64,000 nt of DNA from Psychroflexus lacisalsi (GTDB lineage: Bacteria; Bacteroidota; Bacteroidia; Flavobacteriales; Flavobacteriaceae). Location of the stretch: positions 62,001 to 126,000 of the forward strand of contig NZ_JAIQYZ010000007.1 in the NCBI RefSeq assembly GCF_020164495.1, in the 5' to 3' direction. Shown in pieces: positions 37,375-60,012 of the stretch. The first letter of the stretch is position 1. Each line of letters opens with the position of its first letter. Under the pieces are notes generated by a model. It had not been told where the DNA came from. It ran no database searches and saw only the letters and a list, made by a program, of their open reading frames with translations. A program made the translations under genes and the position numbers.

Positions 37375-37376
37375 TT

Positions 37377-37769: not shown

Positions 37770-37772
37770 AGC

Positions 37773-38657: not shown

Positions 38658-38660
38658 CAA

Positions 38661-42203: not shown

Positions 42204-42872
42204 TCATGAAATCGCCTCTATAATTTCTTTGGTAAAGGTTTTTGATATAGGTATGATATTTTCATTAATACTGATTTCCTTAGTATTGAATGCATCAATA
42301 GAATTTTTGTTGATGACATAAGAACGGTGAACTTGTAAAAAAGAAGAAGAATTCATTTGCTTTAAAAAACCTTTAATGCTGGAGCGAACTAATTTTTTAG
42401 AATCTTTTAAATGGAGTATCAAATATTGATCTTCTTTTTTGGCGAATAATATCTGTTCTTCTAATAGTATAACTTTTTTGTCTTTATCTTTTACAGTGAT
42501 TTGCCCCTTATTTTTTATTCTACTAACCGCTAACTCTACAGCAATAAAGAGGTCTTTAGTATTAAAAGGTTTTACTAAATAACTAGCAGGCTTTGTAGCG
42601 ATTGCAGCTTTTATAGTCTCTTTATCATTGAAAGCAGTGAGATAAATGAGCGGAATATCCAGTTGACTGCCCAGCCAAACCCCTGTTTGTAAACCTTCTA
42701 CTCTAATGTCTAAAATAGCAATGTCTGGTTTAAGTTTACTTATTTCTGTAAGTGCAGTTTCTACATCTGTTGCCATCCCGCAAATTGTGAAATCCAAATC
42801 CTCCAGCGTCTGTTTCAAAAGCTCCTGAGTAATAATTTCATCTTCTAAAATGTAAATTTTAATGCTATTCAT
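42204..42872 (-). CDS. LytTR-family response regulator
   Basis: Protein of 222 residues: receiver domain (about 4-118) with the acidic pocket EDE at 10-12, phospho-acceptor Asp55 in ILDIRVEG and YLVKPFN (Lys about 107), followed by a LytTR DNA-binding domain (about 128-222) with the pattern LHLKDSKKLVRSSIKGFLKQM and FLQVHRSYVINKNSI. LytTR regulators bind pairs of short direct repeats about two helical turns apart. The start overlaps the sensor gene end by 8 bases, so kinase and regulator form a cognate pair. Exact direct repeats fitting this geometry lie at 46180-46210. Confidence 0.95.
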   Translation of the reverse strand: MNSIKIYILEDEIITQELLKQTLEDLDFTICGMATDVETALTEISKLKPDIAILDIRVEGLQTGVWLGSQLDIPLIYLTAFNDKETIKAAIATKPASYLVKPFNTKDLFIAVELAVSRIKNKGQITVKDKDKKVILLEEQILFAKKEDQYLILHLKDSKKLVRSSIKGFLKQMNSSSFLQVHRSYVINKNSIDAFNTKEISINENIIPISKTFTKEIIEAIS

Positions 42873-45800
42873 TTGTCGAGAAAAGTAAAGTTAATTTGAA
42901 ATTAGAAGTGTTTTCAATCTTCAAATCTCCTTTCAATTGCTTGCTCATCATTTCTATTATTTTCATACCCATAGACACTTTTTTGTTCTCTTGTTTTTTA
43001 AAATTTCCATTATCAAAATATTCAAATACATAGGTTTTGTCCTGCTTTTTAAAATAAATAGAAATTACCGGATGCTCAATTTCTGTAAAAGCGTGTTTGT
43101 TGGAATTATTTATCAATTCATTTAATAACAATGAAAATGGAGTGGCTTTTTTTACGCTTAAGAGGGAAGCATCTATATCTAGTTGGTAGCTCACATTATC
43201 CAGGAAAAGCTTTTGGTAGTAGGTTACGCTGTTTTCTATGTTTTCTTTAACAGAAATAAAATCCTGATTACTGGTATGATACAATAGGTTGTGAATGCCT
43301 GCAATAGACTCTATTCTGCTCTGGCTATCCTGCAATTTTAGTTTTAATTCCTCGTTTTTGCTTTTGGCAATTTGCAAGCCTAATAGCCCGGAAACAATTT
43401 GAAGATTATTTTTTATCCTGTGATGAATTTCCAACATCATAGTATTTTTGATGTTAGCTTCATTTAGAGCCATTTCATTTTTTGCAAATAACACCTGTTT
43501 TATTCTATACTGATAAAATAGATATACAACTGAGAGGGAAACAAAACCGAGAAGAAGCAGAATAAACCACCAGGTTTTATAAAAAACTTCTTTAGAAATT
43601 ATTTTGAGCGCAACCCTTTCTCCTATCTTTGGTTGAGATGGACTAAAGGCCTCGACCTCCAATGTATATGTTCCTGCAGCCAGATTTGCATAGAGAAGTT
43701 CTCTTCCTGGATAAGTTGTAAACCAGTCTGAATCACTTTCAGAATTCAACAGTCGAAATCGGTACTTAATATCTTGGGGAACGATCTCTCCTAGTACGGA
43801 TAATGTTGCCGAAAACCTTCTGTATTCTGCAGGCAATACTATCTCGCTGGTATTATTTAAAAAATCTGGAGAAGCATTGACTGTCCAACGATCATTTTCT
43901 GAATTAAAAAAAGAAATTGACGTAAACTGAGGCTGCACATTGGTATCAGTTTCAACTATTTCATCAGGCTTAAAGTAGCTGAGTCCTTTGAAGCTTCCCA
44001 TCAAAATACTGCCATCTTGCTCATCTTTATAGGTGCTGAACCTGTTGCCTTCAAGCTCATAAACACCGTCTTCAGTAGTGTATCTAGCTATTTTTTTTGA
44101 AGTCGGGTTAACCGAAACAATTCCCGCATAGGTATTTAGCCATAACGTGCCTGTATCGTCTGCTATCATTCCCACGATAGAAGCCTTTAACTCATCTTCG
44201 TAGAAGAGAGTTAATTCCTTAGTTGTAGTATCGAATGAATAGATTTCACCAAATTTTGTAGAAACCAGGACCCCATAATCTTCCAGATAGTTAATAGATA
44301 GTAAATCATCTGTTTCTACATTTTCAAATTCATAGGTATTAAAAGTGCCATTCTCGTATTCAAAAATCCCCTGAAAGGAGGTTGCATAGAGTCTTGTGCC
44401 ATCTGTTGTAAATTCCTTCACCTGTATAGCATCTGTATTGGTAATTTTAGTATACCTCTTTTCGTTAATGTTGTATTTAGAAATGACACCTCTTTGATCT
44501 GCAGTAAACAGAGTGTCTTTTATTTTTATGATTTCTTCACCATGTATTTTGACAGTTTTATCCTGAATTACCTTAAAATTTAAATCCAGTGTGTATAGAT
44601 CATCAGAATCCCCAATTATAAATGTGTTGTCTTTTCCAATAAAAATATCCCGGGAGTAATTAATTGCGAGCTCGGTAGTATCTTCTAGAATTTTAATTCG
44701 TTCTTCTGTGTTTTCTTTTACGTCGATCTTGTAAAACCCCTCAGCATCAGTTGCTACGATATACTTGTTTTCATTCAGTTTTCTAATCGTTCGTATACTT
44801 TTACCTTTCAAAAAAGTTTTGATTTTAGTTTCAATGAAAGAATAGGATTCTAAGGTATTTCCGTTAAGAACAACCAGGTCTTTTCCAAATTCCCTATAAG
44901 CGATTTCTGAAAAATTCTTTACTTCAATTCTGGTGAGTAACTCCTTTTGAAAATTTTTAAAACGATACAACTCAATTTCCATATTGTCACTAAAAATCTC
45001 AGTTGAATATGCTTGTTTAAAGTCTGGTGAAAACTCCAGTGTTTTGTTTTTGCTATAAAATTTATCTGTAAAAGGTATTTCTACAAATTTTGTATTTGCC
45101 TTATCAAATTTGAATGCATTTTGGTAGTCATCAATATAAGTGTAAAAGGCATCATCGACTTTGAAAGAGGGGTGTAATTCTGTTGGATAGAAATGGATTC
45201 CGCTCTTTGTTTCAAAATTATTCTCTGTTAATTTTTTTGTGAATTTCCCTTTTTTATTTAATAGATAAATCTCCTTTTCAAATAACAGCTTAATGAGCGT
45301 AAACTCATCAGTTATAACTGGATCAGCGATAAATGGATCGGTCACTGGCTTATCAAAAGGAATAGAATCTATAAATGTCAGCTTCACTTTATCAAGTTCA
45401 GCACTATAAAATTTACCTTCAGAGGTGAGAATGAGTCGGGTTAAACCATTATCCTGATGGGCTTGGGAAATGATATACTTTTGATCTAAAGTATTGTATG
45501 CTTCAACAGGCTGAATCTCTAAAGATTCTGTGTTGATGTAAAATAATTCTGCCCTTGCAGACTGATAATAGAGTTTGAGGTAGAAACCTTTGTTCTGCTG
45601 TTTCAAGAAATGTCCGTTTGTGATTTTTTTTCCGGAGATATCTGGCAACCTCAGCTTGAAAAAATTGGCCCCGTCGAAACGTTGAATCATAATTTCCTGC
45701 TCTCCATAAATAAATTCGTTTGAAAGCTTATTCTCTCCCAAAATCCACAACCAGCCGTTGGTATCATAGATGGAATGGTAAGGATTGGAAATCAGGTAAC

Positions 45801-45903
45801 CATTTGCAGAGGAGAACGTTTTTTTAGAAGTCAACACAGCACTTTCCTGCTGAGACCACAGCATGGTGCTGAACAAGAAAACTATAAAAAGTGATTTTTT
45901 CAA
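42865..45903 (-). CDS. Propeller-sensor histidine kinase
   Basis: Protein of 1012 residues starting at TTG 45903. Signal peptide to LWSQQE; residues about 25-640 are strand repeats of the two-component-regulator propeller type (for example TLWLNTYAGIVSVNPTSKK near 590); about 670-755 a Y_Y_Y domain (KYRFRLLNSESDSDWFTTYPGRELLYANLAAGTYTL in pieces); a membrane helix at about 775-797; then a HisKA_2-type dimerisation domain with the phospho-His in EIHHRIKNNLQIV (about 820-832) and a HATPase domain (LLNELINNSNKHAF, YFDNGNF, MGMKIIEMM). The large periplasmic sensor suits an envelope or extracellular ligand. Member of a pair with the LytTR regulator. Confidence 0.93.
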   Translation of the reverse strand: MKKSLFIVFLFSTMLWSQQESAVLTSKKTFSSANGYLISNPYHSIYDTNGWLWILGENKLSNEFIYGEQEIMIQRFDGANFFKLRLPDISGKKITNGHFLKQQNKGFYLKLYYQSARAELFYINTESLEIQPVEAYNTLDQKYIISQAHQDNGLTRLILTSEGKFYSAELDKVKLTFIDSIPFDKPVTDPFIADPVITDEFTLIKLLFEKEIYLLNKKGKFTKKLTENNFETKSGIHFYPTELHPSFKVDDAFYTYIDDYQNAFKFDKANTKFVEIPFTDKFYSKNKTLEFSPDFKQAYSTEIFSDNMEIELYRFKNFQKELLTRIEVKNFSEIAYREFGKDLVVLNGNTLESYSFIETKIKTFLKGKSIRTIRKLNENKYIVATDAEGFYKIDVKENTEERIKILEDTTELAINYSRDIFIGKDNTFIIGDSDDLYTLDLNFKVIQDKTVKIHGEEIIKIKDTLFTADQRGVISKYNINEKRYTKITNTDAIQVKEFTTDGTRLYATSFQGIFEYENGTFNTYEFENVETDDLLSINYLEDYGVLVSTKFGEIYSFDTTTKELTLFYEDELKASIVGMIADDTGTLWLNTYAGIVSVNPTSKKIARYTTEDGVYELEGNRFSTYKDEQDGSILMGSFKGLSYFKPDEIVETDTNVQPQFTSISFFNSENDRWTVNASPDFLNNTSEIVLPAEYRRFSATLSVLGEIVPQDIKYRFRLLNSESDSDWFTTYPGRELLYANLAAGTYTLEVEAFSPSQPKIGERVALKIISKEVFYKTWWFILLLLGFVSLSVVYLFYQYRIKQVLFAKNEMALNEANIKNTMMLEIHHRIKNNLQIVSGLLGLQIAKSKNEELKLKLQDSQSRIESIAGIHNLLYHTSNQDFISVKENIENSVTYYQKLFLDNVSYQLDIDASLLSVKKATPFSLLLNELINNSNKHAFTEIEHPVISIYFKKQDKTYVFEYFDNGNFKKQENKKVSMGMKIIEMMSKQLKGDLKIENTSNFKLTLLFSTNE

Positions 45904-46179
45904 ATTCTGGTTTAAGACCTAAAAAAAAATCAAATGTAAAAAAGCAGGCCAAGTAATTTTATGATTTGAATAATTATTTAATAAATAATCTTAGGCTAAT
46001 TTATAATGCACCAATAAATGAAGACCTAAAAGCAAAAATGAAGAACATAAATTTTTCAATTTTTGAAGGATTTCTTTTCAACAGCACCTCCAAAAAATAA
46101 GTTCTCGTTTACTTCAAATGAAATCAATTTTGAATCTTTTTTAAATAAGACAATTCAAAATATTTTGTTAACAAAATTC

Positions 46180-46210
46180 GTTCACGACAAAAAAATGACT
46201 GTTCACGACA
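46180..46210 (+). promoter_or_regulatory. Pair of direct repeats, probable LytTR-regulator binding site
   Basis: GTTCACGACA occurs at 46180-46189 and again at 46201-46210, identical in all ten bases and 21 bp start to start. LytTR regulators recognise two roughly 9-bp direct repeats with a GTT core separated by 12-13 bp, i.e. a 21-22 bp period. The site ends 28 bp before a -7 box, so it lies where the -33 element would be approached by an activator. The binding protein (the regulator at 42204-42872) is inferred. Confidence 0.7.
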
Positions 46211-46238
46211 TTTTTTAAAATCTTAATCGAGTGTTAAT

Positions 46239-46246
46239 TAGATTTG
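46239..46246 (+). promoter_or_regulatory. -7 promoter box of the surface-protein operon
   Basis: TAGATTTG, an exact TAnnTTTG match. No TTG/TTTG lies at the -33 distance, as expected for a promoter that depends on an activator bound at the repeats just upstream. Confidence 0.55.
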
Positions 46247-46407
46247 CTAACAAAATCTTAAATAACATCAACAAATACTAGACTTGAACCCATTTTATTT
46301 TAAGAATTTAATACCGCGAACTACTTAAATCATTAAATATTTAAGCAGTGATCAAATCGATCTGTAAAATCATTAAAATCAAATCAATAACTTTTATACC
46401 ACCACTT

Positions 46408-47289
46408 ATGAACAAACATTTACTTCTTGCAGTTTTCAGCTTATTCTTCTTTGGAATTAGCAACGCACAAACAACCGCTAATCAATCTGGAATTGCCATT
46501 CAGGGTATCGCCAGAGATGCTAATAACACAGCACGGGCCAACCAAAACATTCAGTTGTCTTTAGCCTTCTATTATATTAATGCCAGCGGTCAGGAGCAGG
46601 AAATTATTAACCTGAACAATTCCGTGACAACAGATTCTTTTGGGGTGTTTTCTCTGACACTGGATACTAACGTGAACAACAATCCAGTGTTTGCTAATCA
46701 CGAAAGCTACCTGCGTATTAAGGACGGTAATGGGACGACCATATCTGATGAAAAGCTTAAAACCGTTCCCTACAGTATTTCTGCTGGAAATGGGGTGCCT
46801 ACTGGATCTATTATGGCATTTATGGGTGCCACTATACCAAAAGGCTGGGTACTTTGTGATGGGCGAACATTGACAAATGTTGCTGGCTCTGAAGAGCTAC
46901 GTGCTTTGGTCGGTAATAATGTTCCAAATCTACAAGGCTACTTCTTAAGAGGTGCCGGTAGCAACGGATTTACTGAAAAAACAACCAGTGTAGGAGTAGC
47001 CTATGATGATACTAATTTATCACACGGCCACGCTGTGAATATTGACACCTCTTCCGATGGTGCATACAATCCTACAAATGAAGCATATAACAGGCTATTA
47101 CAATTTACTGGAAATTATACAGTAAACAATCCTGATAATACTAGTTTTGGTCGTGAACCTGACTTAGGGGGAAGTAGTGTATTGAACATACCAGCACACA
47201 CCCACAAAGTCAGTGGTAATACGCTTACTTCTGGTAGTAACGAATCTGCACCAGTTCACTTTGGTGTGAACTATATGATCAAACTTTAA
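46408..47289 (+). CDS. Secreted phage-tail-collar-domain protein
   Basis: Protein of 293 residues from ATG 46408 (open frame extends back to 46348, but this start gives the signal peptide, ending SNAQTT). After the signal comes a strand-rich N-terminal domain (about 30-125; AIQGIARDANNTARANQNIQLSL, split here) of the type found at the N-terminus of many Bacteroidota tail-fibre-like proteins. Then a collar domain (about 130-190) with GSIMAFMGATIPKGWVLCDG and NLQGYFLRG, and HGHAV/HTHKV His-rich strands before the end VHFGVNYMIKL. No T9SS tail. First gene of the operon, 6 bases before the giant protein gene. Confidence 0.88.
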   Translation: MNKHLLLAVFSLFFFGISNAQTTANQSGIAIQGIARDANNTARANQNIQLSLAFYYINASGQEQEIINLNNSVTTDSFGVFSLTLDTNVNNNPVFANHESYLRIKDGNGTTISDEKLKTVPYSISAGNGVPTGSIMAFMGATIPKGWVLCDGRTLTNVAGSEELRALVGNNVPNLQGYFLRGAGSNGFTEKTTSVGVAYDDTNLSHGHAVNIDTSSDGAYNPTNEAYNRLLQFTGNYTVNNPDNTSFGREPDLGGSSVLNIPAHTHKVSGNTLTSGSNESAPVHFGVNYMIKL

Positions 47290-47295
47290 TCCATC

Positions 47296-50200
47296 ATGAT
47301 GAAAATCAAACATATACTCTCAGGGGTTCTGTTCCTGATAGCCATAAGTATGGGCTATTCACAGACTACTCCTAAAGGTGCCCGTATCGTCACGGCGGCA
47401 CAAACGATCCAGACCAATAATACAGGTAGTAACAATTATACTATACAGACAGGTTTGCCCATATTGGGACAAAACCGCAATGTTACGACACCTCCAGCTA
47501 CTCAGGACTTACAGATAAGGTTTCCCTGGGGCGTTCTCTATTTATTTGATACGTTTAGTGAAGATTCCTTTGAGGTGTCTAAAGGCTTTTTTGGGGATAA
47601 AATCCTGGTGAATTGGCAGATTGGGGCTAACGCCAATCTCATCACTACCTTAAAGCTTTACCGCAGGGAATATACGGAAGATGGCTCACAACCCTATCAA
47701 TTTGTGGCGAATATAGCCCCAACAGCAACCAGTTATGAAGACCGGTATGTAGACGGCGGCATATTATATGAATATAAGTTGTTTGCCCAGGGCATTGTGC
47801 AGGGGGAAGTGCGATTGAGCAACTTTATAACAGGAATTGGTTTCCGTAATCCTACGGCGATCGTTACCGGTAATGTCACTTTTGAAGGGGGTAACCCGGT
47901 CAAGGACGTAACGCTGAGAGCACGATCCAGTGGTAGTGATTTTAACTATGGCAGTGGCTTAATGATCCCTGATAATGGACAGCTGTTAATCGATGACCTT
48001 AATAAACCTGTGGTGACAAAGATGACTTTTCAAACCTGGGTGAAGCCTGTTGATGCATTTTCTAACAATAATGAATTACCTATAAGGCTGTTTTTAACGG
48101 ATTCTGATCCACAATCTATATATGCCAATGTGAAATTAAACGCCACAGCGAATGAACTCATCATTGATGTTAAAGGCCAGGAATTTACCCTAAAAAATTA
48201 TATGCCTAGTGGTGCAGTAAATACAAGAGGTGATGATATTCTGGTTCCGGTTTCAAATTTTAATACTTCCTTTACGCACATCACTATACAGGTAGAAAAT
48301 GGTATAATTCCTAAAGTCTTTATTAACGGCCGGCCTGTAACTGATGCCTACGTGTCGACTGCCGATGATGCGCTAAGAGGAAAAGATGCAAATTATACAG
48401 AGCCTTTTTTCGCTTTATCATTAAACGAGGGAGTAACACCTATAAATCTTGATACAGACGAGTTAAAAATAGGTGGGCTGAGAGCAGCTTACATCGATGA
48501 AATTAGGGTGTACAATACTATAAAATCGCCTAAGGTAATCCGCAGTGATTATTCCAGATACATAAGTGGTAATGATGCGGGAATGATCGCCTACCTGAGA
48601 GCAAATGAAGGCGTTGGTGATTTTGCCTATGACCTTTCTCGTAACGGGTTTAATTACAACAAGAATAATGGAAAACTAGCTACCAATAGCCTGGACAAGG
48701 TGCTATGGGAAAGCAATGTTGAAAACTTCCCCAATGAAAACCAACTGGGAATTCTGGGTATTACAGACGAGAATGGAAATTATGAGATCAATGCCATTCC
48801 TTATACAGGAACAGGCGAGAGCTTTACCATCACCCCACTTTTTGGACAACACGAGTTTGATCCAGGGCAACAACTGGTATTTCTAGGTCAGGGATCTGAG
48901 GTGGTCAATAAAATTGATTTTACAGACATCTCTGCCTTCAACTTTAATGGTCAAATTCTTTATGATACACGAGGTGTTTTTAAATCTTTTGTAGAATTGA
49001 ATGAAAATACAACTAATAATCTTACCGATGGTGATGAATATGTTTCTGGACCTGGGATTATCGATGAAGGTTACAATACCTATGAAAAATCAGGTATCAA
49101 ATATCCAAAAGGAGAATACTGGTACAATGAAAATGAGGATCGCCTGGAACGTTATGCCAGAATAGGTCTTAAAGGAGCAAATGTATTTGTAGACGGCGAC
49201 ATTGTACTGGATGAAAACAACTTCCCTGTAGAAACTGATGCCGAAGGAAAATTTAGCATAGATGTACCCATAGGAAATCACTTTATCACAGTTAAGAAAA
49301 ACGGTCATGAATTTGTAGCCTCAGGGAGATTTCCTGCAGCTACACCATCGTTTCAGGAATTTTTTGAGGATGCGGTAGAACCTGTTTTTTTTATAGACGA
49401 GACCAGAGTTGCCATCGTTGGTAAAGTTGTGGGAGGCTCTGTAGAAGCGGCAAAACCCATTGGTTTTGGTGAAAATGGAATTGCAACAAGAACCTTTACC
49501 AACAGTGAAGGTATTGAAGAAACGGTTCGCTATTCTGCTAAGAATAACATAGGGCAAGCTAAATTAGTATTTGGTCACAAGCCAGCAGTTGGCAGTATTG
49601 TACCTGAAACGCGCTTTACTTTTGAAACAAATGCAGCCACCGGTGAGTATCGTGTGGAAGTCATGCCTTTGCAATATGAGATTAGTGAAACTAATGGTAT
49701 TACTATTAGTAGCAATGTGGAAGTAAATATTGGTTCACAGATACTGGAGTCCAATGAAATTCTAAATTTTGAAGACGTAAACGAAGTTAGCATTCCTGAA
49801 TTTGTGTTTTCAGATGATACGGTTATAACAGGGGTCCCTTTCAATTATGAACAGAGTCTGGTTTATAGATCTATACCTACAATGAAGGTCGTGAAACAGA
49901 CCTTTGATCCGGTAGTTTTAAAGTCTGATAAGGAGACGGCATCTACTTCAAGCTTTGAGGTACCTGTCATTACGCAAGGAAAAACATATGAGGTCGTGCT
50001 TAATACGTTTGAGCGATATGAAAATAAAGATGATGGCTCAAACACTATAGAAGATATAGTTCCGGTAGTTGACGGGAATTTGAACATTACCAATAACCTT
50101 GCATTAAATCCCTTTAATTATAATACACAGGTAACCAGAAGTACAACGGAACCAAGTCTTTTGACCTATAAATTTAAGGCAGGACTGCCTACCATAAGTA

Positions 50201-53200
50201 CGCCTTTCACAAAATCAATTTCTATCATTTATGAAATAAATGGTAATTCTTATGAGGCTGAAGACTTGATAAAGGACGTGATTGTCCTGGGAGGTAAATC
50301 TGATGGAAGCCAGACTTTTGTAACTGCAGGTCCTGATATGCCGGATATTATTCTACGTGATCCTCCAGGAACCAATAGTTCAGCTAGAATTAAAGCTGGA
50401 CAAACAGTATCCTTTACTACCGAAAGAAATGCTACCAACGAAGGAGTAATCTCGACTGAATTTACAATTAAAGCTGGTTTGACAGTTGGAGCCGGAGGTG
50501 GTTTAGCAGGTCCTGTAGTTGAACAGGAAACTACCAATAATATCAATACCGGCATTTCTGTAACTACAGGCTCTACAGATGGAAGTAGTTTGAACAAAAC
50601 TTACACATTTTCTCAAGAAATTGCCACCAGTGATGATCCTGAGTTTGTAGGAGCAGAAGGAGACCTTTACATAGGACAATCTAAAAATTTCAGTTACGGG
50701 AGTTTTGATAATGTTCAGATATCTGATGTAATAACCGGAGATCCAGGTACCAGAATTTTAGTTGCTGATGATGGTACTGAGTTCGAGATTTCAAAACAAA
50801 AAGCGATGTTTTTTGCAGACGAACCTACCGAAACCATGTTTGTTTATTCTCAGAAATTCATTTTAGAGGAATTGATTCCTAGTTTAGAGTTAATTGTTTC
50901 AAACATTGAAGGTGGACTTTTAGATCCATCAGATCCTGATGCTAATGTTCTGACAATAGAAGAGTACAATGAGCAAATTCGACTTTGGAAGAATGTCATC
51001 TTAGAAAATGAACGTTCTAAGTATTTAGCATTTAAAGAACGTGAAGCATATAAGCAACAGACCATTGATCAGATAGATGCATTCAGACAAGACTTGATTG
51101 ATGAAATTGACGGGAGCATTGGTATAGGTTCTGGAGGTGATTATGTGGATCGCTTAAAAGATCAATTGGGAGCCATGGATATCTTGCGCAATCAAGTTCT
51201 GAATAATTTTGACGATAATATTTCATTTGATGCTGGTGTTGGTGAGATCACACGTTCTGTAGAGACCAGTATTGTGAATACCACAGTAACAGCATTTAAT
51301 GTAAAAATTGATGAAAAACTTTCTTTTGATGTTGGTTTTGGATTCAATGGTGCTGGATTTATAAATTCGACAGGAGGTTCTGCTTCGCAGGATATTACCT
51401 CGAGTCTAACAGAAGAGCAACAGGAAACTACTGAAATATCTTTTACTCTTAAAGATAACGACCCGGCAAACTTCTTAAGTGTAGATGTGATCAATGCATT
51501 CGACGGGAATGGACCTATTTTCAGTACGATAGGGGGTCGAACATCTTGTCCTTATGAAGGGGCAGAATTATCCTATTTCTATGATAAGGAAACCTATCAA
51601 ACTAATCCTTCTTCTATAGAACGAATTTCAGAAGAATCGGAAAGAGAACAGTTAACCGCAGCAACACAAAAGGCAGAAGATCCAAGGATAAGTGTAGAAA
51701 TCGCAGAGATCAATAACATCCCAGAATCTGACGCGGCAGAATTTAAATTGATCTTAGAGAATAATGCAGATACTAATGGTAATGGAGAAGGTTTTGGCTC
51801 CTTTGAGCTAAGGGTAGATAACACTACCAATCCGTTTAATGCAGAGTTCAATATAGGGAGTACCAATACCTTCGTTGATGTCCCTTATGGAGAAAAGGTA
51901 GAATATTTCCTTACGTTGCGTAAATCCATATCTGATGTTTATGACTATAAGGATATCAGAATTATATTACAATCCGTTTGTGATTCAGAAGAGGTGTTTG
52001 ACGATATTTTGATATCGGCATCATTCATTCCTTCTTGTTCCAAGGTTGTTGTCAATGCTCCGCTAAATAACTTCTCCTTCAATAGAGATTCAGCGTTTAA
52101 TCTTGATGGAACTACTAATTCCTTAAACGTAGAATTAGGTGAATTTAACAGCTCATTCAATTCGTTTGAAAAGATTGAATTGGAGTACCGTAAGGCAACT
52201 TCTCCATCATGGACAAGATTGCAGACGTATTATAATACGCAAGATTTTCTTGATGCTGCAATAGATAATAATGAGACCAAAGTTTCATTGATTGAAAGTG
52301 CAAATATCAATTATGCTTTCGACATCGCTGGCCTTAATTTAGCGGATGGCGAGTATGAGATCAGAGCAAGATCCAGTTGCACCAATGGCACTGAGTATAT
52401 ATCAGAACCCATTATTGGTCGCGTAGACTTGACTAGTCCACAAAAGTTTGGAACGCCATTCCCATTAAACGGAATCTATGCTACCGGAACTGATCTTAGG
52501 GCGCGTTTTAGCGAGGACATTTTCTATAATTCTGCGGTGAGTCTTTTGGAAATCAAAGGCCAGACCAATCAGTTACCGGTGACTAATGAGGTCTCCTTAT
52601 TTTTCAATGGTTTGAACAACACTATGGTAATTGAAAATCCGCGTATTGCTAATGGTGACCTATCCATCGAATTCTGGATGAACAATCAAACCACGGCAAG
52701 CAGCGCAAGCATTATAAGTCAGCCGGGAGGCATCGATGTAAGTTTAGAAGGTACTGAAATGGTATTCAAACTTGCTGGAGCTGAAGCTCGTGGAATTATA
52801 GCTGTAGATGATTTATTCCATCATTATACGTTGACTTACAATAGTGAAACTGGAGATTTAAAAATCATCGAAGAAGATCGTGTGTTGAAATCGGTTTCAG
52901 GAAATGTAGATGCTTCCCTTCAGAACAATAATAATATAACCATAGGTGGAAATACCTTTATTGGAAACATGAGTCAATTGCGATTTTGGAACATTCCACT
53001 ATCTCTAGACGATTCATTTGCGATGATGTATTCTAAATTAATGGGTAACGAGGCAGGACTTACAGCCTACTACCCTTTAGATGAAGGTCGTGGTAACATT
53101 GCCAAAGACAAAGCTCGATTCAAAGACGCTGTAGTTACTACAGATTGGGATATCAAGCCTAAAGGTGAAAGTTACTCCTTTAGTAATGGTGCATCTCTGA

Positions 53201-55893
53201 CATTAGATAATGTAGGTTTTGCCCAATTGACACCTACGATGGATGCTACCATATCTTTCTGGATGAAAACTGATGTTTCTCAGGACGCTACCATTTTCTC
53301 AAACGGGAAAGGCGATGGTACAGACCCTGTAATGTCCGGAGGTTTTTCCAATAAATGGTCCATAGACCTGGCAAGTAATGGAAATCTATCTTTTAATAGT
53401 GAAGGAATCAATTTACCTCTAACAGAGCAATCAGTGGTGGATGATAAATGGCACCATGTGTCCATACGATTAAATCGTTTAGGCTCCATGAGAACTTATG
53501 TAGATCAAAATTTAGTGTCTACAAACTCGATGACAGGTATAGGTGGTTTCTCTGGTAATAGAGCATATTTAGGTGTTCGAGGCTCAGCTGATGCGGCAAA
53601 TATGGTATCCCTGGACAGACCTTATCAAGGAAGTCTGGATGAATTCCGCTTGTGGAATACCTTACGGACTAACGATCAGGAAGATCGAGATGCCTATGAA
53701 GAGATTGATCCGGAAACAATTGGATTAATGATATATTCTCGATTTAATGCCCCCGATCCATTGACAGGAAATGGTCCGCAATATTTCCACGCATTTAGTA
53801 ATAATACAGTAATTCCATCAAATGCAGTGATGCAAAGCGGTACAACGGCTTACAACCAAGACAGCCCAGCTATCAAACCAGCGCGTGAATTGATTAAAAT
53901 TCCAGTGAATTATGTCATCAATGGGGATGAGATCATACTGGAGCCCCAGGTCAATTCATTCGCAGAAATTGAAGGGCAGATACTCGATGTTACGATTCAC
54001 CGATTGTTTGATTCTGCAGACAATAGGCAACAGTCACCAGTGACCTGGTCTGTGTTTGTTCAGAAAAACGATATGGACTGGTATGCTGAAGGCTTTAATA
54101 ACGATGTCATCGACATTACTAAAGACTTTGAACAGGAAGAGCAGTTTGAATTGACAATCGTCAACCGTGGTGGCGCCAATCAACCTTTTAGAATTTCAAA
54201 TATTCCATCGTGGTTGAACCTAAGTGCTAGCTCTGGGACAGTTTCTCCAGCGAGCCAAATTACGATTACTGCGACGATTGATGCCTTGCTAGATCCGGGT
54301 GTTTATACTCAGGATTTGAGACTCTCTTCTGACTTTGGCTTGGATCAGGTACAGTTATTAAACGTTCGTGTGCTGGGAGATACTCCAAACTGGACCGTAG
54401 ATCCTACTCAATTTGAACATAGTATGAATGTCATTGGTATTCTAAAAATCGACGGGCAAATATCTGAAGATGAATATGACAAGATTGCAGCCTTTAGCAA
54501 CGGTGAAGTAAGAGGAGTTACTATACTAGAGTATAATCCCAATTATGAGCAATCCTTTGCCTTCTTGACCTTGTATAGCAATCAAGCCTCAGGTGAAAAC
54601 ATCACCTTTAAGGTATGGGATGCTTCTACAGGAAACATTATACAATTGGAACTGGATGATAATTCTAATCTTACATTTCTTACAAATGAAGTGATAGGAT
54701 CCTTGAATCAGCCAGCTGTATTCTCAAATACCAACGTCACAGAAAAGGAATATCAACTGAATGCAGGATGGAATTGGTTAAGTCTTAATATAGAAGATCC
54801 AAGAGCTTCTGATTTGAACCAGCTGACATCAAACATGAATCTTGAAACTTCAGATCTAATAATGAGTAGTACGCCAGCGCGTTTGGACACTTACTTTAAA
54901 AGACAGGATGGTTCTGGGTCATGGTCTGGAAGTATTTCCGCCTCTGGAGGTTTAAAAACAGATTTTATGTATAAAATCTACATGCATACTCCACAAACCT
55001 TAAAGTTGTCTGGTTCAAAAGTAGATATGACTACTTATGAGTTTGAAATTAAACAAAACTGGAATTGGTTGTCTTTCCCACTTTTGCAAAATGTCCAACT
55101 TTCAAGAGCTCTATCAAACTTTAATCCTACTGAGGGAGATGTGATTAAATCCCAAAATTTATTTGCCATTTATGATCAGCGAAACGGTTGGAGTGGTACA
55201 CTCAAGTTTTTAGAACAAGGAAAAGGATATATGATCAACTCATCTACCGGCCAGCAGTTCAGCTATCCAGCTTCTGTTTTAAAATCATTGGGAACATTTC
55301 AGAAAGAAGAATTTGGTGAGAATAAACCAATGGATAAGAGATTTTATCAATATCCTGAGAATATGAATGCGATTGTAAAATTACCAAGCTCTTACAATAA
55401 GCTATACGTATATGATGATGTAGGAGTTCTTAAAGGTCATGGAGAAAATCAGATGGTTGGAGATCATCAGCTCACCTTTATTACTATTTACGGTGAGAAG
55501 GCTGAGAACCTCAACTATTACGTTGGTTATGATGAGTCGGATTTAACAAAAGCAACCAACCTTTTAGAATTTAATAGTAATAAGGTCTTAGGTAAAATTA
55601 ATGATCCTGTAGTATTGAAATTAGGAAGTGACTCCACAACAGCTTTAGATGCTTTCGTTCTTTATCCCAATCCATTTGATGAGCGATTGGTTATTAAAAT
55701 GATTTCTGAAGTTTCACAATCTACCAGCATACAACTCTTTAGTATAGATGGAAGGTTGGTGTTTGAAAAACAGGTGACCTTGAAAACTGGAGGAAATTCC
55801 GTACAAATCAATCCTAATATTTCATCTGGAACTTATTTCTTAAAAGTATCTAACAGTACAACTACTGAGATCAAAAAAGTAATTAAAAAGTAA
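47296..55893 (+). CDS. Giant LamG-domain surface protein with T9SS sorting tail
   Basis: Protein of 2865 residues. Signal peptide to MGYSQT; fibronectin-like strands (about 95-185); three LamG/concanavalin-type domains (about 215-415, 1765-1900, 1955-2130; the third with EFRLWNTLR); carboxypeptidase-regulatory-like pieces (about 490-525, 635-690); a helical, charged stretch (about 1190-1290); a BACON-like domain (about 2285-2360; IPSWLNLSASSGTVSPASQ); a module PNWTVDPTQFEHSM shared with the next gene (about 2365-2480); two repeats with WNWLS (about 2490-2650); and a type A T9SS tail (about 2785-2865; VLYPNPFDERL, ending SNSTTTEIKKVIKK). It is exported across the outer membrane and fixed to the surface. 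An adhesin or glycan-binding role is inferred from LamG. Confidence 0.9.
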   Translation: MMKIKHILSGVLFLIAISMGYSQTTPKGARIVTAAQTIQTNNTGSNNYTIQTGLPILGQNRNVTTPPATQDLQIRFPWGVLYLFDTFSEDSFEVSKGFFGDKILVNWQIGANANLITTLKLYRREYTEDGSQPYQFVANIAPTATSYEDRYVDGGILYEYKLFAQGIVQGEVRLSNFITGIGFRNPTAIVTGNVTFEGGNPVKDVTLRARSSGSDFNYGSGLMIPDNGQLLIDDLNKPVVTKMTFQTWVKPVDAFSNNNELPIRLFLTDSDPQSIYANVKLNATANELIIDVKGQEFTLKNYMPSGAVNTRGDDILVPVSNFNTSFTHITIQVENGIIPKVFINGRPVTDAYVSTADDALRGKDANYTEPFFALSLNEGVTPINLDTDELKIGGLRAAYIDEIRVYNTIKSPKVIRSDYSRYISGNDAGMIAYLRANEGVGDFAYDLSRNGFNYNKNNGKLATNSLDKVLWESNVENFPNENQLGILGITDENGNYEINAIPYTGTGESFTITPLFGQHEFDPGQQLVFLGQGSEVVNKIDFTDISAFNFNGQILYDTRGVFKSFVELNENTTNNLTDGDEYVSGPGIIDEGYNTYEKSGIKYPKGEYWYNENEDRLERYARIGLKGANVFVDGDIVLDENNFPVETDAEGKFSIDVPIGNHFITVKKNGHEFVASGRFPAATPSFQEFFEDAVEPVFFIDETRVAIVGKVVGGSVEAAKPIGFGENGIATRTFTNSEGIEETVRYSAKNNIGQAKLVFGHKPAVGSIVPETRFTFETNAATGEYRVEVMPLQYEISETNGITISSNVEVNIGSQILESNEILNFEDVNEVSIPEFVFSDDTVITGVPFNYEQSLVYRSIPTMKVVKQTFDPVVLKSDKETASTSSFEVPVITQGKTYEVVLNTFERYENKDDGSNTIEDIVPVVDGNLNITNNLALNPFNYNTQVTRSTTEPSLLTYKFKAGLPTISTPFTKSISIIYEINGNSYEAEDLIKDVIVLGGKSDGSQTFVTAGPDMPDIILRDPPGTNSSARIKAGQTVSFTTERNATNEGVISTEFTIKAGLTVGAGGGLAGPVVEQETTNNINTGISVTTGSTDGSSLNKTYTFSQEIATSDDPEFVGAEGDLYIGQSKNFSYGSFDNVQISDVITGDPGTRILVADDGTEFEISKQKAMFFADEPTETMFVYSQKFILEELIPSLELIVSNIEGGLLDPSDPDANVLTIEEYNEQIRLWKNVILENERSKYLAFKEREAYKQQTIDQIDAFRQDLIDEIDGSIGIGSGGDYVDRLKDQLGAMDILRNQVLNNFDDNISFDAGVGEITRSVETSIVNTTVTAFNVKIDEKLSFDVGFGFNGAGFINSTGGSASQDITSSLTEEQQETTEISFTLKDNDPANFLSVDVINAFDGNGPIFSTIGGRTSCPYEGAELSYFYDKETYQTNPSSIERISEESEREQLTAATQKAEDPRISVEIAEINNIPESDAAEFKLILENNADTNGNGEGFGSFELRVDNTTNPFNAEFNIGSTNTFVDVPYGEKVEYFLTLRKSISDVYDYKDIRIILQSVCDSEEVFDDILISASFIPSCSKVVVNAPLNNFSFNRDSAFNLDGTTNSLNVELGEFNSSFNSFEKIELEYRKATSPSWTRLQTYYNTQDFLDAAIDNNETKVSLIESANINYAFDIAGLNLADGEYEIRARSSCTNGTEYISEPIIGRVDLTSPQKFGTPFPLNGIYATGTDLRARFSEDIFYNSAVSLLEIKGQTNQLPVTNEVSLFFNGLNNTMVIENPRIANGDLSIEFWMNNQTTASSASIISQPGGIDVSLEGTEMVFKLAGAEARGIIAVDDLFHHYTLTYNSETGDLKIIEEDRVLKSVSGNVDASLQNNNNITIGGNTFIGNMSQLRFWNIPLSLDDSFAMMYSKLMGNEAGLTAYYPLDEGRGNIAKDKARFKDAVVTTDWDIKPKGESYSFSNGASLTLDNVGFAQLTPTMDATISFWMKTDVSQDATIFSNGKGDGTDPVMSGGFSNKWSIDLASNGNLSFNSEGINLPLTEQSVVDDKWHHVSIRLNRLGSMRTYVDQNLVSTNSMTGIGGFSGNRAYLGVRGSADAANMVSLDRPYQGSLDEFRLWNTLRTNDQEDRDAYEEIDPETIGLMIYSRFNAPDPLTGNGPQYFHAFSNNTVIPSNAVMQSGTTAYNQDSPAIKPARELIKIPVNYVINGDEIILEPQVNSFAEIEGQILDVTIHRLFDSADNRQQSPVTWSVFVQKNDMDWYAEGFNNDVIDITKDFEQEEQFELTIVNRGGANQPFRISNIPSWLNLSASSGTVSPASQITITATIDALLDPGVYTQDLRLSSDFGLDQVQLLNVRVLGDTPNWTVDPTQFEHSMNVIGILKIDGQISEDEYDKIAAFSNGEVRGVTILEYNPNYEQSFAFLTLYSNQASGENITFKVWDASTGNIIQLELDDNSNLTFLTNEVIGSLNQPAVFSNTNVTEKEYQLNAGWNWLSLNIEDPRASDLNQLTSNMNLETSDLIMSSTPARLDTYFKRQDGSGSWSGSISASGGLKTDFMYKIYMHTPQTLKLSGSKVDMTTYEFEIKQNWNWLSFPLLQNVQLSRALSNFNPTEGDVIKSQNLFAIYDQRNGWSGTLKFLEQGKGYMINSSTGQQFSYPASVLKSLGTFQKEEFGENKPMDKRFYQYPENMNAIVKLPSSYNKLYVYDDVGVLKGHGENQMVGDHQLTFITIYGEKAENLNYYVGYDESDLTKATNLLEFNSNKVLGKINDPVVLKLGSDSTTALDAFVLYPNPFDERLVIKMISEVSQSTSIQLFSIDGRLVFEKQVTLKTGGNSVQINPNISSGTYFLKVSNSTTTEIKKVIKK

Positions 55894-55900
55894 TTAAATT

Positions 55901-58897
55901 ATGAAAAGAATACTATTACTTCTTATGGGTTTAGCAGTCAACATTTTGACTGCTCAAGCCCCTAATTGGTCCCTAAACGAAAGTGATTTCGAATATTCTA
56001 TGACTCGTGTAGCATTTTTGAATGTAAATGGACAAGAGTTGTCCAATACAAATAATAAGGTTGCAGCTTTCATAAATGGTGAAATCAGAGGCGTTGCCAA
56101 TTTAGTAACTGTTTCCGGATCTTCAAGAACCTATGCTTATTTAACTGTATTTGCTAATCAAGAAAATCAGACGGTGCAATACAAAATTTATAATTCAACA
56201 ACAGGGGCCGTTGTCGATGTGCCTAAGACAGACGTATTTAAAATTAATGACCATCGAGGAGATCTGTTTCAAGCCTATAGTATAGCGAATCCAACCTTGA
56301 ACGATGATGCTGATATTTTGGATTTCGGGTTTGAAGGTGAAGAAGAATTAGAAGTTATTGTAAACGAGTCGGAAGTCACCATAACCTTAGACAGGTCCTT
56401 ATCCTTGGATGCGTTAATTGTAGATTTTCAACTCAGCGAAGGTGCTCAACTATTTTACGATGGACAAAGAGTTGAACTTGGAGCCACAATAGATTTCAAC
56501 ACTCCTAAAAATTACCAAGTACGTTCTGAAGATGAGTCATTTGTTAAAAACTGGACAGTTGGTACAGAACTGATTTTTAATAGAGATGAAGCAGTCATTA
56601 CTGCTGATGCTACACAGACTTTTACCTATGATGGGCAGCTTAAAACTGTAACGGCAAGACTGAATCATAGTGAAACCACTTTGAACTATTCACCTCAGCA
56701 AGGCTATACCGACGCCGGGACTTATCCTATTACAGTAAGTGCTAGTCAAACGGACAATTATCTTGCAGCTTCTAAAAGTGTAAACCTGGTTATTGATAAA
56801 GCCGACATCACGGGAGTTACTTTTGAAGGTAGTAGCTTTACTTATGATGGGACTGCGAAAACTATCCAGGTAAACGGTCTCCCGGAAGGTGCCACTGTGA
56901 GCTATGTCAATAACAATAAGACCAGCGCAGGAATCTACGAAGTTATCGCCACTGTAAGAAAAGATAACTTTAATGATTTGGAATTATCTGCCGAACTCTT
57001 GATCAATAAAGCTGAAGCTACATTAACTGCAGATGCAATTCAGACTTTCACCTATGATGGAAACCTTAAAAATGTAACAGCGAGTCTAAATCATACTGAA
57101 ACTATTTTGAGCTTTGCGCCACAGCAGGGATTTACCAACGCGGGAATTTATACAATAACTGTGGTTTCAGCGGAAACCAAAAATTATGAACCCGTAAGCA
57201 AAAGTGTGCAGCTAGTGATTAATAAATCCCCTCAAGCCATTACTTTTGAAGGTGGTAGCTTTACTTATGATGGAAATCCAAAAACTATCGAAGTAAGCAA
57301 TCTTCCTGAAGGAGCTACTGTAAGTTATGTCAATAACGGCAAAATCAATGCTGGAAGCTATTTAGTCTCTGCCACTGTTAGCCAAGACAACTTTAATGAT
57401 CTAGAAATATCTGCTGGACTAATTATCAATAAAGCGGTTGCCACAATCACAGCAGACGCTACACAGACCTTTACCTATGACGGAGAAGTCAAAAATGTGA
57501 CCGCAAGTCTGAATCATAGTGAAACTGAACTGACTTATTCTCCACAACAAGGATATATAAACGTAGATTCCTACCCTGTCACTGTCATTGCAGCTGAATC
57601 GGTAAACTACCTATCAACTTCCAAAAGCGTGAGACTCGTCATTGAACCCGCAGCACAGGAAGGACTTGTATTCAATGATAAAAGCTTTACCTATGATACT
57701 ACTATTAAATCACTGGAAGTAACAGGGCAAGCAGATGGTTCCACTGTGGTTTATGAAAATAACAATCAAACAGATGTAGGAAGCTATGTGGTAATAGCAA
57801 CGATAACCCATCCTAACTTTACAGATATAGTTTTGGAAGCCATGCTAAGCATTGCTAAAGCACCTCAAACTATAACATTCGGTGCTTTAGCAATACGTAA
57901 TTCAGAAACCGATCCAGATTTTCAATTGGATGCCATAGCTTCATCGGGCCTTGAAATCACTTATTCGTTCAGCTATACCTCTGCACAACCAGCAGCGACA
58001 GTTTCTCCTTCTGGTTTTGTAGAACTACAGACTTCGGGACAAATTCAAATCACCGCTTTACAAGCTGGAAATAGCAATTACCTGGAAGCAACAGCTATTG
58101 AGCGCACCTTGAATGTTAATAGTTCTAATGCAGCAGCATTGAGCATTACCATCGACGGGCAGATTTTCAATAATCCTGGAGAACAGGTCTATTATTTGAT
58201 CGATTGCGATAAGACAGTTTCTTCAGTCGATGTATCCATCCAAACTGAACCTAATACTCAGATAAATACTGGAAACAGCCTTACCATTGCTTCTCCAGAT
58301 CAAGGAATTTACCGTCAGGAAGTTGTGGTAACTTCTCAAGATGGGATTCAAACCAGAACTTATATGGTAATAGTAGAAAAGGCTTTTGATTTTAACGCGA
58401 TCATCGTTCAAAAATATAATAATACACTTGTGGTCAATAACAACCCGAGCACGAACGGTGGCTATATCTTTGTAGCCTATGAATGGTTTAAAAACGGGAA
58501 TAGTGTGGGAAAAAAGCAGGCTTATTCCGAAGGAAATCGAGCGACCGATCTTCTCGATCCTAATGCCAGCTACATGGTAAAAATGACAACAGAGGATGGG
58601 GATATTCTTCAAACTTGTGAAACCAGAATTCAATTAAAAAGCAGTTTCTCCATGGTAATTGCAGAAAATCCAATAGCACAGGGGGCCAAATTAAATGTGA
58701 TGGCAGATTATCCATCTAGCGAACTCAAAGGAGCGGTTTACCAAATTTACTCTGCAGATGGAAGACTTTTAAAAAGCCAACCTGTTAATGGTTATCATAC
58801 TAGTATAGATATTTCTGGCCACCTATCTACAGGAATGTACAGGCTTATATTGGTAACTCCACAACGCAGAGTAGCTAAAAACTTTATCAAAAACTAA
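55901..58897 (+). CDS. MBG-repeat surface protein with T9SS sorting tail
   Basis: Protein of 998 residues. Signal peptide to LTAQAP, the PNWSLNESDFEYSM module (about 20-130) also found in the giant neighbour, a DUF5018-like domain (about 137-222), then three A-B pairs of MBG-type repeats (about 230-650). Unit A has ADATQTFTYDG...LNHSET...PQQGY; unit B has FEGSSFTYDG...LPEGATVSYVNN. After an ITFGALA domain (about 653-740) and a cadherin-like domain (about 744-825), a T9SS tail closes it (about 915-998; GAVYQIYSADGRLL, YRLILVTPQRRVAKNFIKN in pieces). It is probably a rod-like stalk. It begins 8 bases after the giant gene. Confidence 0.9.
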   Translation: MKRILLLLMGLAVNILTAQAPNWSLNESDFEYSMTRVAFLNVNGQELSNTNNKVAAFINGEIRGVANLVTVSGSSRTYAYLTVFANQENQTVQYKIYNSTTGAVVDVPKTDVFKINDHRGDLFQAYSIANPTLNDDADILDFGFEGEEELEVIVNESEVTITLDRSLSLDALIVDFQLSEGAQLFYDGQRVELGATIDFNTPKNYQVRSEDESFVKNWTVGTELIFNRDEAVITADATQTFTYDGQLKTVTARLNHSETTLNYSPQQGYTDAGTYPITVSASQTDNYLAASKSVNLVIDKADITGVTFEGSSFTYDGTAKTIQVNGLPEGATVSYVNNNKTSAGIYEVIATVRKDNFNDLELSAELLINKAEATLTADAIQTFTYDGNLKNVTASLNHTETILSFAPQQGFTNAGIYTITVVSAETKNYEPVSKSVQLVINKSPQAITFEGGSFTYDGNPKTIEVSNLPEGATVSYVNNGKINAGSYLVSATVSQDNFNDLEISAGLIINKAVATITADATQTFTYDGEVKNVTASLNHSETELTYSPQQGYINVDSYPVTVIAAESVNYLSTSKSVRLVIEPAAQEGLVFNDKSFTYDTTIKSLEVTGQADGSTVVYENNNQTDVGSYVVIATITHPNFTDIVLEAMLSIAKAPQTITFGALAIRNSETDPDFQLDAIASSGLEITYSFSYTSAQPAATVSPSGFVELQTSGQIQITALQAGNSNYLEATAIERTLNVNSSNAAALSITIDGQIFNNPGEQVYYLIDCDKTVSSVDVSIQTEPNTQINTGNSLTIASPDQGIYRQEVVVTSQDGIQTRTYMVIVEKAFDFNAIIVQKYNNTLVVNNNPSTNGGYIFVAYEWFKNGNSVGKKQAYSEGNRATDLLDPNASYMVKMTTEDGDILQTCETRIQLKSSFSMVIAENPIAQGAKLNVMADYPSSELKGAVYQIYSADGRLLKSQPVNGYHTSIDISGHLSTGMYRLILVTPQRRVAKNFIKN

Positions 58898-58909
58898 GAA
58901 CCATCTATA

Positions 58910-59869
58910 ATGACTATACTATATAAAATATTAAAACAACTGGCTTCAAGGAAAAAGCAATGGAATATAGTAACCCTATTTCCAGGAAGCCTTATTGCTA
59001 TTTTGATCTTAACGAATCCGACGTGCAAGGCTCAAACAGATCTAAGCTTTTCAGTAGGTCTTCAAATGAATTTTGCGGAGATAGAACTAGAGACTTCAGA
59101 ATTTGAAAGCTCTTTCAAAGACGGAGCTGGTATTATAGTAGGTATCTCAAAAGGATTAAATGAAACCTGGAGCCTTCACTCTGGGGTAGGTTTCAACTAT
59201 TTTGAGGCCGGTAATAGTATCAACACGTACTCCAGCGCTGAGGATGCTATTGACATGGATAGAGAAGCTTTTGAATTTCGCTATTCTGCTTCCAATTATT
59301 CTGAAACGCAAAAGTTGACTGCTGTAAGTATCCCTATAGCGATACAATACGAATCTTTCGGAGAAGTGCGTTTTTATTCAAAAATAGGTGCGGAAGCCAA
59401 CGTTTTTATTAATGAAAAATCCGATGCTAGAGCTTCAAGTTTAACCACTTCAGGTTTTTTTCCCAGATTTAATGCGGTACTAGACGGTCCTGAATTTGCA
59501 GGATTTGGAACCTATGCTAATCAGAAATTCAATGAGAAAGATTTGAATATAAAAAGCAGTTTCAATGCCTTTCTTGAGTTGGGTGTAAAACAAATTTACC
59601 CGTCTGGAAACGCTTTATACGTAGGTGGATTTTTCAAATATGGATTGAATGATATTTCAAATGGAGAAGAATCTAATGGACTAATAAGCTACAATTCAGA
59701 AAACCCTGTAGACTTCCGCTCTACTTCTGTATTGAATGCACTAAAAAATCCACAAGACGGATCTGAGAGGATTTCTACTAAAGCTAATTTTCACTTTTTT
59801 GGTATAACATTGAGATATGAATTTGATCTTCAATTCTTAAAACCTACCGTAAAAGAAAGTAAAGATTAA
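58910..59869 (+). CDS. Outer-membrane beta-barrel protein of the surface operon
   Basis: Protein of 319 residues, 12 bases after the MBG gene. A long N-terminus (about 25 residues) precedes a hydrophobic segment and a signal end at TCKAQT. The mature chain is a beta-barrel of PorT-like type: SFSVGLQMNFAEIELE, GIIVGISKGLNETWSLHSGVGFNYFE, VRFYSKIGAEANVFI, NALYVGGFFKYGLND, and a final FFGITLRYEF. It does not show PorP/SprF sequence features. The pairing of a giant T9SS protein with an outer-membrane barrel suggests that it anchors or helps to present the two surface proteins. Last gene of the operon. Confidence 0.85.
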   Translation: MTILYKILKQLASRKKQWNIVTLFPGSLIAILILTNPTCKAQTDLSFSVGLQMNFAEIELETSEFESSFKDGAGIIVGISKGLNETWSLHSGVGFNYFEAGNSINTYSSAEDAIDMDREAFEFRYSASNYSETQKLTAVSIPIAIQYESFGEVRFYSKIGAEANVFINEKSDARASSLTTSGFFPRFNAVLDGPEFAGFGTYANQKFNEKDLNIKSSFNAFLELGVKQIYPSGNALYVGGFFKYGLNDISNGEESNGLISYNSENPVDFRSTSVLNALKNPQDGSERISTKANFHFFGITLRYEFDLQFLKPTVKESKD

Positions 59870-59971: not shown

Positions 59972-60012
59972 TTTTTAAGACCTTTCAATAAACTGAAAGG
60001 TCTTAATTTTTT
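59972..60012 (+). terminator. Terminator of the surface operon
   Basis: AAGACCTTTCA and TGAAAGGTCTT pair around ATAAAC, followed by AATTTTTT, about 100 bases past the last stop. Confidence 0.92.

Follow-up and report, generated by a model that had tools for sequence, protein, structure and literature searches.

Our analysis of a 64,000-nucleotide stretch of the genome of Psychroflexus lacisalsi (contig NZ_JAIQYZ010000007.1, positions 62,001 to 126,000; hereafter the window, whose numbering is used throughout) identified, in a four-gene operon on its plus strand, the local copy of a surface gene cassette composed of a collar protein related to phage tail fibres, a giant protein of the type IX secretion system (T9SS), and a companion protein. 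The first-pass annotation, made from the letters of the window, had described these genes, together with a divergent kinase and LytTR regulator, as one self-contained system; the six-gene set is one local form of a conserved surface cassette. The cassette is real, conserved, and apparently undescribed, and no description of it was found in the literature searched, which consisted of open-licence papers. We lean towards the reading that the plus-strand operon makes a cell-surface recognition or adhesion complex that carries an exchangeable phage-fibre tip and is locally switched; in such a complex, Bacteroidota that are mostly free-living would combine receptor-binding tips of phage type with a surface scaffold of the T9SS.

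To describe the distribution of the cassette, 249 genomes of the family were searched with the giant protein at an E-value of 1e-10. Five genomes matched, four of them through giant genes (our own, G248 at 52%, G185 at 39%, and G002 at 32%) and the fifth through a small shared domain only, a count that is a lower bound because the first family search scored two candidates per genome. G174, which belongs to the same genus, gave no giant match. Scanning GTDB contigs with one sequence brought up no relatives, whereas an alignment-based scan succeeded: profile A2, built from the middle part of four giants, yielded 145 candidate stretches and 41 named loci, again a lower bound, since the contig scan needs exact peptide patterns (L041 and L052 were taken as the same records as G185 and G002). 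The hosts include Flavobacterium, Lutibacter, Gaetbulibacter, Hyunsoonleella, Mariniflexile, Cyclobacterium, Lunatimonas, Pleomorphovibrio, Cesiribacter, Pedobacter, Daejeonella, and many metagenome-assembled genomes (MAGs).

The order of the genes is conserved among the 41 named loci. A collar gene lies directly upstream of the giant, on the same strand, in 36 of the 37 loci with room for it (the upstream side is cut or open in L029, L030, L034, and L038), and a companion gene lies directly downstream in 33 of 34 (the downstream side is cut in L020, L027, L030, L043, L044, L046, and L055). The locus lacking a companion, L058, has a giant open reading frame (ORF) of only 845 amino acids (aa), and the giant of L029 is divided between two frames. 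As the loci were picked by their giant, these linkage rates are conditional on it. In 18 of the 41 loci the companion is followed by a fourth gene of 127-144 aa, and a lipobox-like cysteine was seen by eye in all 15 fourth-gene proteins read, one of them from G248. In L024, L029, and L035 the gene after the companion is of the PorP/SprF type, and the companion has a type B (CHU_C) tail. The conserved unit consists of collar, giant, and companion, often with an anchoring gene (a lipoprotein, PorP/SprF, or, here, a probable barrel).

In the window, all six ORFs that the first-pass annotation had placed at this locus were found in the ORF list, and the two-component pair and the four plus-strand genes do share one spacer, of 444 bp. 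The regulator and kinase genes overlap by 8 bp, and the four plus-strand genes are separated by gaps of 6, 7, and 12 bp. The features of the locus are as follows.

42204-42872, minus strand: LytTR response regulator, 222 aa (Response_reg and LytTR above cut-off)
42865-45903, minus strand: sensor kinase of the HisKA_2 type, 1012 aa, whose N-terminal sensor region is large (HisKA_2 75.3 bits)
46180-46210, plus strand: candidate LytTR operator, two perfect 10-bp direct repeats (46180-46189 and 46201-46210), 21 bp from start to start
46408-47289, plus strand: collar protein with signal peptide, Bacteroidota surface adaptor domain, and T4 gp12-type collar and tip
46954-47244, plus strand: variable tip of the collar protein, between an FLRG motif and the conserved C-terminal end
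47296-55893, plus strand: giant T9SS-exported LamG protein, 2865 aa (Pfam and conservation along its length)
49543-51735, plus strand: core of the giant (residues 750-1480), which is conserved across the family, was exchanged as one block in L023, and matches no known fold
55660-55884, plus strand: type A T9SS tail at residues 2789-2863 of the giant (Por_Secre_tail 45.7 bits)
55901-58897, plus strand: companion, 998 aa, with a conserved N-terminal companion domain, MBG repeats, and a probable type A tail
58910-59869, plus strand: probable outer-membrane barrel, 319 aa (OMP_b-brl below cut-off), in a slot held by a lipoprotein or PorP/SprF gene in many relatives
59975-60006, plus strand: terminator-like hairpin, a 13-bp stem followed by six T, 3' of the last plus-strand gene

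The phage collar domain proposed for the first plus-strand gene was borne out, with a Pfam Collar score of 32.8 bits against a cut-off of 24. Its ORF is open from a GTG at 46348, and since the ATG at 46408 begins a typical signal peptide, the gene probably starts at 46408. A profile of 24 collar proteins matched T4 gp12 over positions 130-293 in three structures (1ocy, 1pdi, and 5iv5) with E-values from 1.8e-10 (1ocy) to 3.2e-9, and it matched the gp37 tip (2xgf) at 5.8e-7; the top structure match, the short tail fibre 9cuy (3.3e-16), spans positions 130-206 only. The window protein has a collar domain and receptor-binding region homologous to those of gp12. With T4 gp12 and the gp37 tip the cassette protein shares the collar and tip region, a conserved C-terminal end, and HxH motifs, which are near invariant among the collar proteins and which hold metal in the gp12/gp37 trimer. 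It differs from both in its N-terminal half, a Sec signal followed by the Bacteroidota adaptor, and no phage structural genes were seen in the cassette. The 449 phage records that match the window protein do so through its C-terminal half only, at about 30% at best, and none reaches 80% coverage.

The tip is the variable part of the collar protein. In 429 of the 435 pairs formed by 30 loci in which collar and giant are complete, conservation was lower in the tip than in the body. Where the giants are at least 70% identical (27 pairs), the tips were at most 36% identical in 16, at least 95% identical in 7, and between these values in 4 (82, 77, 66, and 51%). Close pairs mostly have near-same or very different tips, as exchange predicts, the intermediates notwithstanding, and from these alignments the collar tip looks to have been exchanged between species. 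Plasmid matches to the L021 collar protein include the PilV shufflon adhesin (32%, collar region). The PilV shufflon of conjugative plasmids determines recipient choice, and PilV resembles the cassette protein in being a bacterial surface tip with exchangeable ends; PilV is pilus- and recombinase-based, and the exchange seen for the cassette is between species.

The same adaptor may also carry other phage-type ends. In a phylum sample, the middle part of the giant was present in 9 of 296 genomes, our own included, and eight stretches from seven of the eight other genomes were examined, G322 being left out and L107 being cut before the giant. In L111, L112, and L113 an adaptor-domain gene precedes the distant giant, with a Peptidase_S74 end, the chaperone of phage tailspikes, in two and a Gp10_C end, just above cut-off, in one. 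Within the family sample, the collar profile matched 7 of 249 genomes at an E-value of 1e-15, five of them below 1e-80, of which two were left out of further collar work. An apparent collar-giant fusion in one family genome was an artefact and was set aside. Some loci contain additional collar genes: two adjoining ones with different sequences stand before a single giant in L041 (5171-7001) and L044 (515-2383); L016, from the same record as L041, has a tandem pair of collar genes, with two alginate-lyase genes beside the cassette; and in L032 (478-14860) the first cassette is directly followed by another collar gene and the beginning of another giant, an arrangement that is either a tandem duplication or a second allele.

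The second plus-strand gene encodes, as the first-pass annotation had stated, a LamG protein of 2865 residues (Laminin_G_3, 74.2 bits, in two stretches). T9SS tails had been attributed to two of the four plus-strand proteins; this is firm for the giant (Por_Secre_tail 45.7 bits against a cut-off of 27) and probable for the companion (18.8 against 23). With a signal peptide, recognized by eye, and a tail above cut-off, the giant is a predicted T9SS export substrate, in a genome with 28 such tails above cut-off. The giants form a family of near-constant length: 28 of 33 complete copies measure 2824-2952 aa, and five measure 3099-3376 aa. Relatives are colinear, and window positions are mostly filled, with few gaps, until the C-terminal part; the giant is conserved along its length and, unlike a repeat adhesin, is not made up of repeats. 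A close known parallel is offered by the type B T9SS adhesin operons of Flavobacterium, SprB/SprF among them, which pair a very large exported surface protein with an outer-membrane partner. The cassette likewise encodes a giant T9SS surface protein beside an outer-membrane partner, down to PorP/SprF and a CHU_C tail in L024, L029, and L035; it differs in that the window giant contains no SprB repeats (Pfam, E 0.01) and has a type A tail, and in that a phage-fibre collar protein belongs to the unit.

One segment of the giant behaves differently from the rest. The giants of L023 and L025 are 99% identical over residues 1-500 and 86% over 1550-2650, and 50% over 750-1480; the replaced segment of L023 extends from about residue 740 to 1500 (window numbering) with fairly sharp edges. 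The core has thus been replaced as a block in L023, in one clear event. AlphaFold modelled residues 700-1480 with a mean pLDDT of 73 (60 for residues 1000-1440). A fold search with residues 700-1480 returned three matches at E-values up to 0.001, all Ig-like multidomain chains with TM scores below 0.2, and a profile search of solved sequences gave only Tektin, at an E-value of 0.62; neither sequence nor fold pointed to a credible solved relative of the core.

The third protein has the MBG repeats ascribed to it (MBG_3, 71.6 bits, in 998 aa) and starts with a domain that is also present inside the giant. The beta-barrel proposed for the 319-aa fourth protein is likely only, as OMP_b-brl scored 20.1 bits, below the cut-off of 28.7; PorP_SprF gave no Pfam match, the weak OMP_b-brl hit appearing in its place. 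By comparison with the other loci, the MBG repeats and the probable barrel are local features of the window copy.

Covariation of the parts was studied across 18 loci (153 pairs), with region 1550-2650 of the giant regressed out. Collar body, tip, and giant residues 1-500 covary (0.65-0.74), as do giant tail, companion, and lipoprotein (0.72-0.81); residues 1-500 are linked to the tail block at 0.33-0.39, and the core correlates with no block (0.08-0.32). As the pairs are non-independent and physical linkage alone would be sufficient, the block pattern only hints at which parts meet. In a quick tree with open forks, where MAG labels supply some of the host names, the giant of the window clusters with the Cytophagales copies L049, L047, and L042 (SH-aLRT 99), and the Cyclobacterium giant L048 falls among Flavobacteriaceae copies. 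On this phylogeny, the cassette has probably moved horizontally and been placed under changing regulators.

In the window, the regulator contains a receiver (Response_reg, 53.7 bits) and a LytTR domain (48.9 bits), both above cut-off, and adjoins the kinase, as is typical of a LytTR two-component system; the genome has three LytTR matches. The kinase scored above cut-off for HisKA_2, with Y_Y_Y just below (25.7 bits against 26.6) and no HATPase_c match listed in the Pfam scan, and its sensor region is related to those of other propeller-type kinases. The shared spacer contains two perfect 10-bp repeats with 11 bp between them (46180-46210), which were spotted by eye before any test. This tandem occurs once in the genome, and the controls gave no match. 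A perfect 10-mer repeat at 21 bp arose in 66 of 20000 spacer shuffles (174 of 20000 at 20-22 bp), and the window contains one more, at 29518. Single copies of the 10-mer, with at most one mismatch, are not in excess over chance (3 against 2.2), only the tandem being unusual. Published LytTR sites are paired repeats of 9 bp with a spacing of 10-13 bp (PMC11347149), or repeats whose spacing is usually 12 bp and sometimes 11 or 13 bp (PMC6193735). The geometry of 46180-46210 agrees with direct repeats of about 9 bp at 10-13 bp, and this candidate site is as expected of a LytTR operator for the plus-strand operon. A sigma-70 promoter scan gave no excess (50 against 44.6), the sigma-70 consensus not being of the Bacteroidota type. 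The spacer also has an element, TANNTTTG, at 46239-46246, which we take to resemble the Bacteroidota -7 box and which is readily met by chance in an AT-rich spacer. The tandem repeat in the shared spacer and the collar-giant-companion linkage uphold the suggestion of a regulated surface operon.

The pairing of kinase and LytTR regulator with a tandem direct-repeat site is that of known LytTR systems; what sets the window apart is that its kinase is of the HisKA_2 type and that the pair is not conserved with the cassette. A regulator was recognized next to the cassette in 19 of 30 named loci having upstream genes, and these belong to several classes. A HisKA_3 kinase with a NarL-type regulator occurs in ten copies, G248 included (called by Pfam for the kinases of G248, L021, L022, and L049 and for the G248 regulator, and by phmmer similarity for the others). 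A Reg_prop-AraC regulator is found in L042 and L047 (Pfam) and L046 (similarity), a hybrid regulator with AraC output in L035 and L048, a divergent AraC-type regulator in L039, L040, and L056, with a similar partial gene in L059, and a 7TMR-LuxR regulator in L052 (seen in G002). The regulator label changes at least ten times over 27 labelled giants on the quick tree, counting the partial L059 gene as its own label. A HisKA_2/LytTR pair also stands upstream of the distant giant L110. Relatives of the window kinase were found in eight other genomes among the 249 of the family, none giant-bearing, and all eight lie beside a NarL-type regulator. Two-component genes thus do occur apart from the cassette, an outcome that the first-pass annotation had named as refuting its proposal, and the view of the six genes as one conserved system was rejected because the regulators vary among relatives. 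One constant cassette with many unrelated regulators represents a clean case for regulator recruitment.

In the mechanism that we favour, the giant would serve as the scaffold of the complex. The collar protein would contribute the receptor-binding tip, which is of the gp12/gp37 kind and probably trimeric and is mounted on an adaptor domain widespread in Bacteroidota. Attachment to the outer membrane may fall to the companion and the last gene, through a lipoprotein in many loci, a type B companion with PorP/SprF in a few, and, in the window, a probable barrel together with a longer MBG companion. The kinase would respond to a cue from the periplasm or the outside, and the LytTR regulator paired with it would switch the operon through the tandem-repeat operator. 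The structural cassette would have dispersed through the Bacteroidota, where different local regulators took control of it, with tip, core, and anchoring end apparently exchanged separately. The computations show the gene content and linkage, the homology to gp12, the variability of the tip, the replacement of the core in one close relative, the turnover of regulators, and one operator-like site; we infer that the collar protein forms a trimer, that the proteins are exposed at the surface in a single complex that binds a ligand and is anchored by the last genes, and in which direction regulation acts. For adhesion or glycan binding, the putative function initially suggested, the phage-fibre tip is the best support, and the S74 or marginal Gp10_C ends found in the same place, on the same adaptor, before distant giants also support the recognition reading. 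As the parts appear to be exchanged separately, target specificity is directly testable by deletion or exchange of the tip.

Several observations weigh against a recognition or adhesion complex. By itself, the adaptor domain is found more often than the cassette (in 15 of 100 family genomes); the collar protein lacks a T9SS tail that would account for its way to the surface; and ligand binding by its tip is a prediction from homology. L052 has no collar gene before its giant, and no fibre-type gene was seen before the giant in L108, L109, L110, and L114, four of the seven distant loci with room. Simple adhesion does not predict a swappable core, and the exchange blocks could reflect linkage alone. 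No adjacent regulator was recognized in 11 of the 30 loci (L020, L024, L028, L031, L036, L041, L044, L053, L054, L057, and L058), of which L020, L044, L057, and L058 were checked solely by similarity to seed regulators and L036 has its nearest gene outside the Pfam scan.

A bolder idea, which we put forward tentatively, is that the cassette is a chromosomal, T9SS-built counterpart of the phage host-recognition tip, whose target range is changed by swapping gp12, S74, and perhaps gp10-type ends, whose giant core carries a second, separately swapped activity or identity, which is used to contact other cells in a target-specific way (for partner choice, predation, or antagonism), and whose regulator has been recruited anew many times.

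Contact-dependent antagonism, in which the swappable core acts on a target cell chosen by the tip, the cassette being a weapon rather than an adhesin, seems to us unlikely. The block replacement of the L023 core, with the remainder 86-99% identical to L025, and the phage-like exchange of tips are both in keeping with it, and PMC7073777 links T9SS substrates with polymorphic toxins in Bacteroidetes, among them the TANFOR proteins, which like the giant are large Bacteroidota proteins. The giant, however, ends in a T9SS tail, with no TANFOR match (NCBIfam, E 0.01) and no toxin domain, C-terminal or other, in the Pfam and NCBIfam scans, and its core has no credible fold match. An impression of pore-like hairpins in the core was not borne out: a beta-moment scan did not single them out, a further fold search gave no match at E-values up to 0.001, and pore proteins appeared at noise level only (E about 0.1, TM about 0.1). 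The lipoprotein as an immunity protein to the core is likewise unsupported, since the two do not vary together (partial correlation 0.08).

It is similarly improbable that the operon is a nutrient-sensing accessory for glycan capture, comparable to a SusD-type surface binder, with the LamG domains binding polysaccharide. The LamG domains themselves, the alginate lyases in L016/L041, and the propeller and hybrid regulators near some copies, which resemble sugar-responsive ones, speak for it, but no SusC/SusD was found among the part of the cassette neighbours scanned, nearby enzymes were seen in L016/L041 only, and the phage-fibre tip and its variability are left unexplained. We give very little credence to an accidental neighbourhood, with the collar a domesticated phage gene or an ordinary surface protein unlinked to the giant, although the homology of its tip with phage fibres and the existence of the adaptor on its own in other places speak for it. 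The signal peptide and the lack of phage records covering 80% of the protein count against it, and the conserved linkage, with same-strand adjacency of collar and giant in 36 of 37 loci, largely refutes it for collar, giant, and companion, the two-component genes lying outside that refutation.

Around the cassette, G174 retains the genes at 36685-39881 (78-99% identity) and 60118-60618 (81%), and between these flanks, in place of window positions 39882-60117, it has 23 kb of different genes, including a kinase 24% identical to P0002; the site therefore holds alternative gene content. A 367-aa ORF at 40869-41972 (DUF4458 weak, below cut-off) lies within this variable block and outside the conserved cassette, so that a unit of exactly six genes is not established. 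Terminator-like sites such as that after the last gene show no excess in the region, with 10 found against 9.0 in shuffles.

Relatives of the window kinase are themselves associated with large surface genes. A gene of at least 941 aa follows the kinase relative in seven of the eight genomes, and the three of these that were scanned all have T9SS tails. In L095-L099 and L101, kinase relatives and NarL-type regulators precede a different large surface gene of 1270-1457 aa, with HYR domains and T9SS tails in the two scanned (L095 and L097), and genes of about 165 and 225 aa follow in several loci; this arrangement is possibly a second regulated surface cassette.

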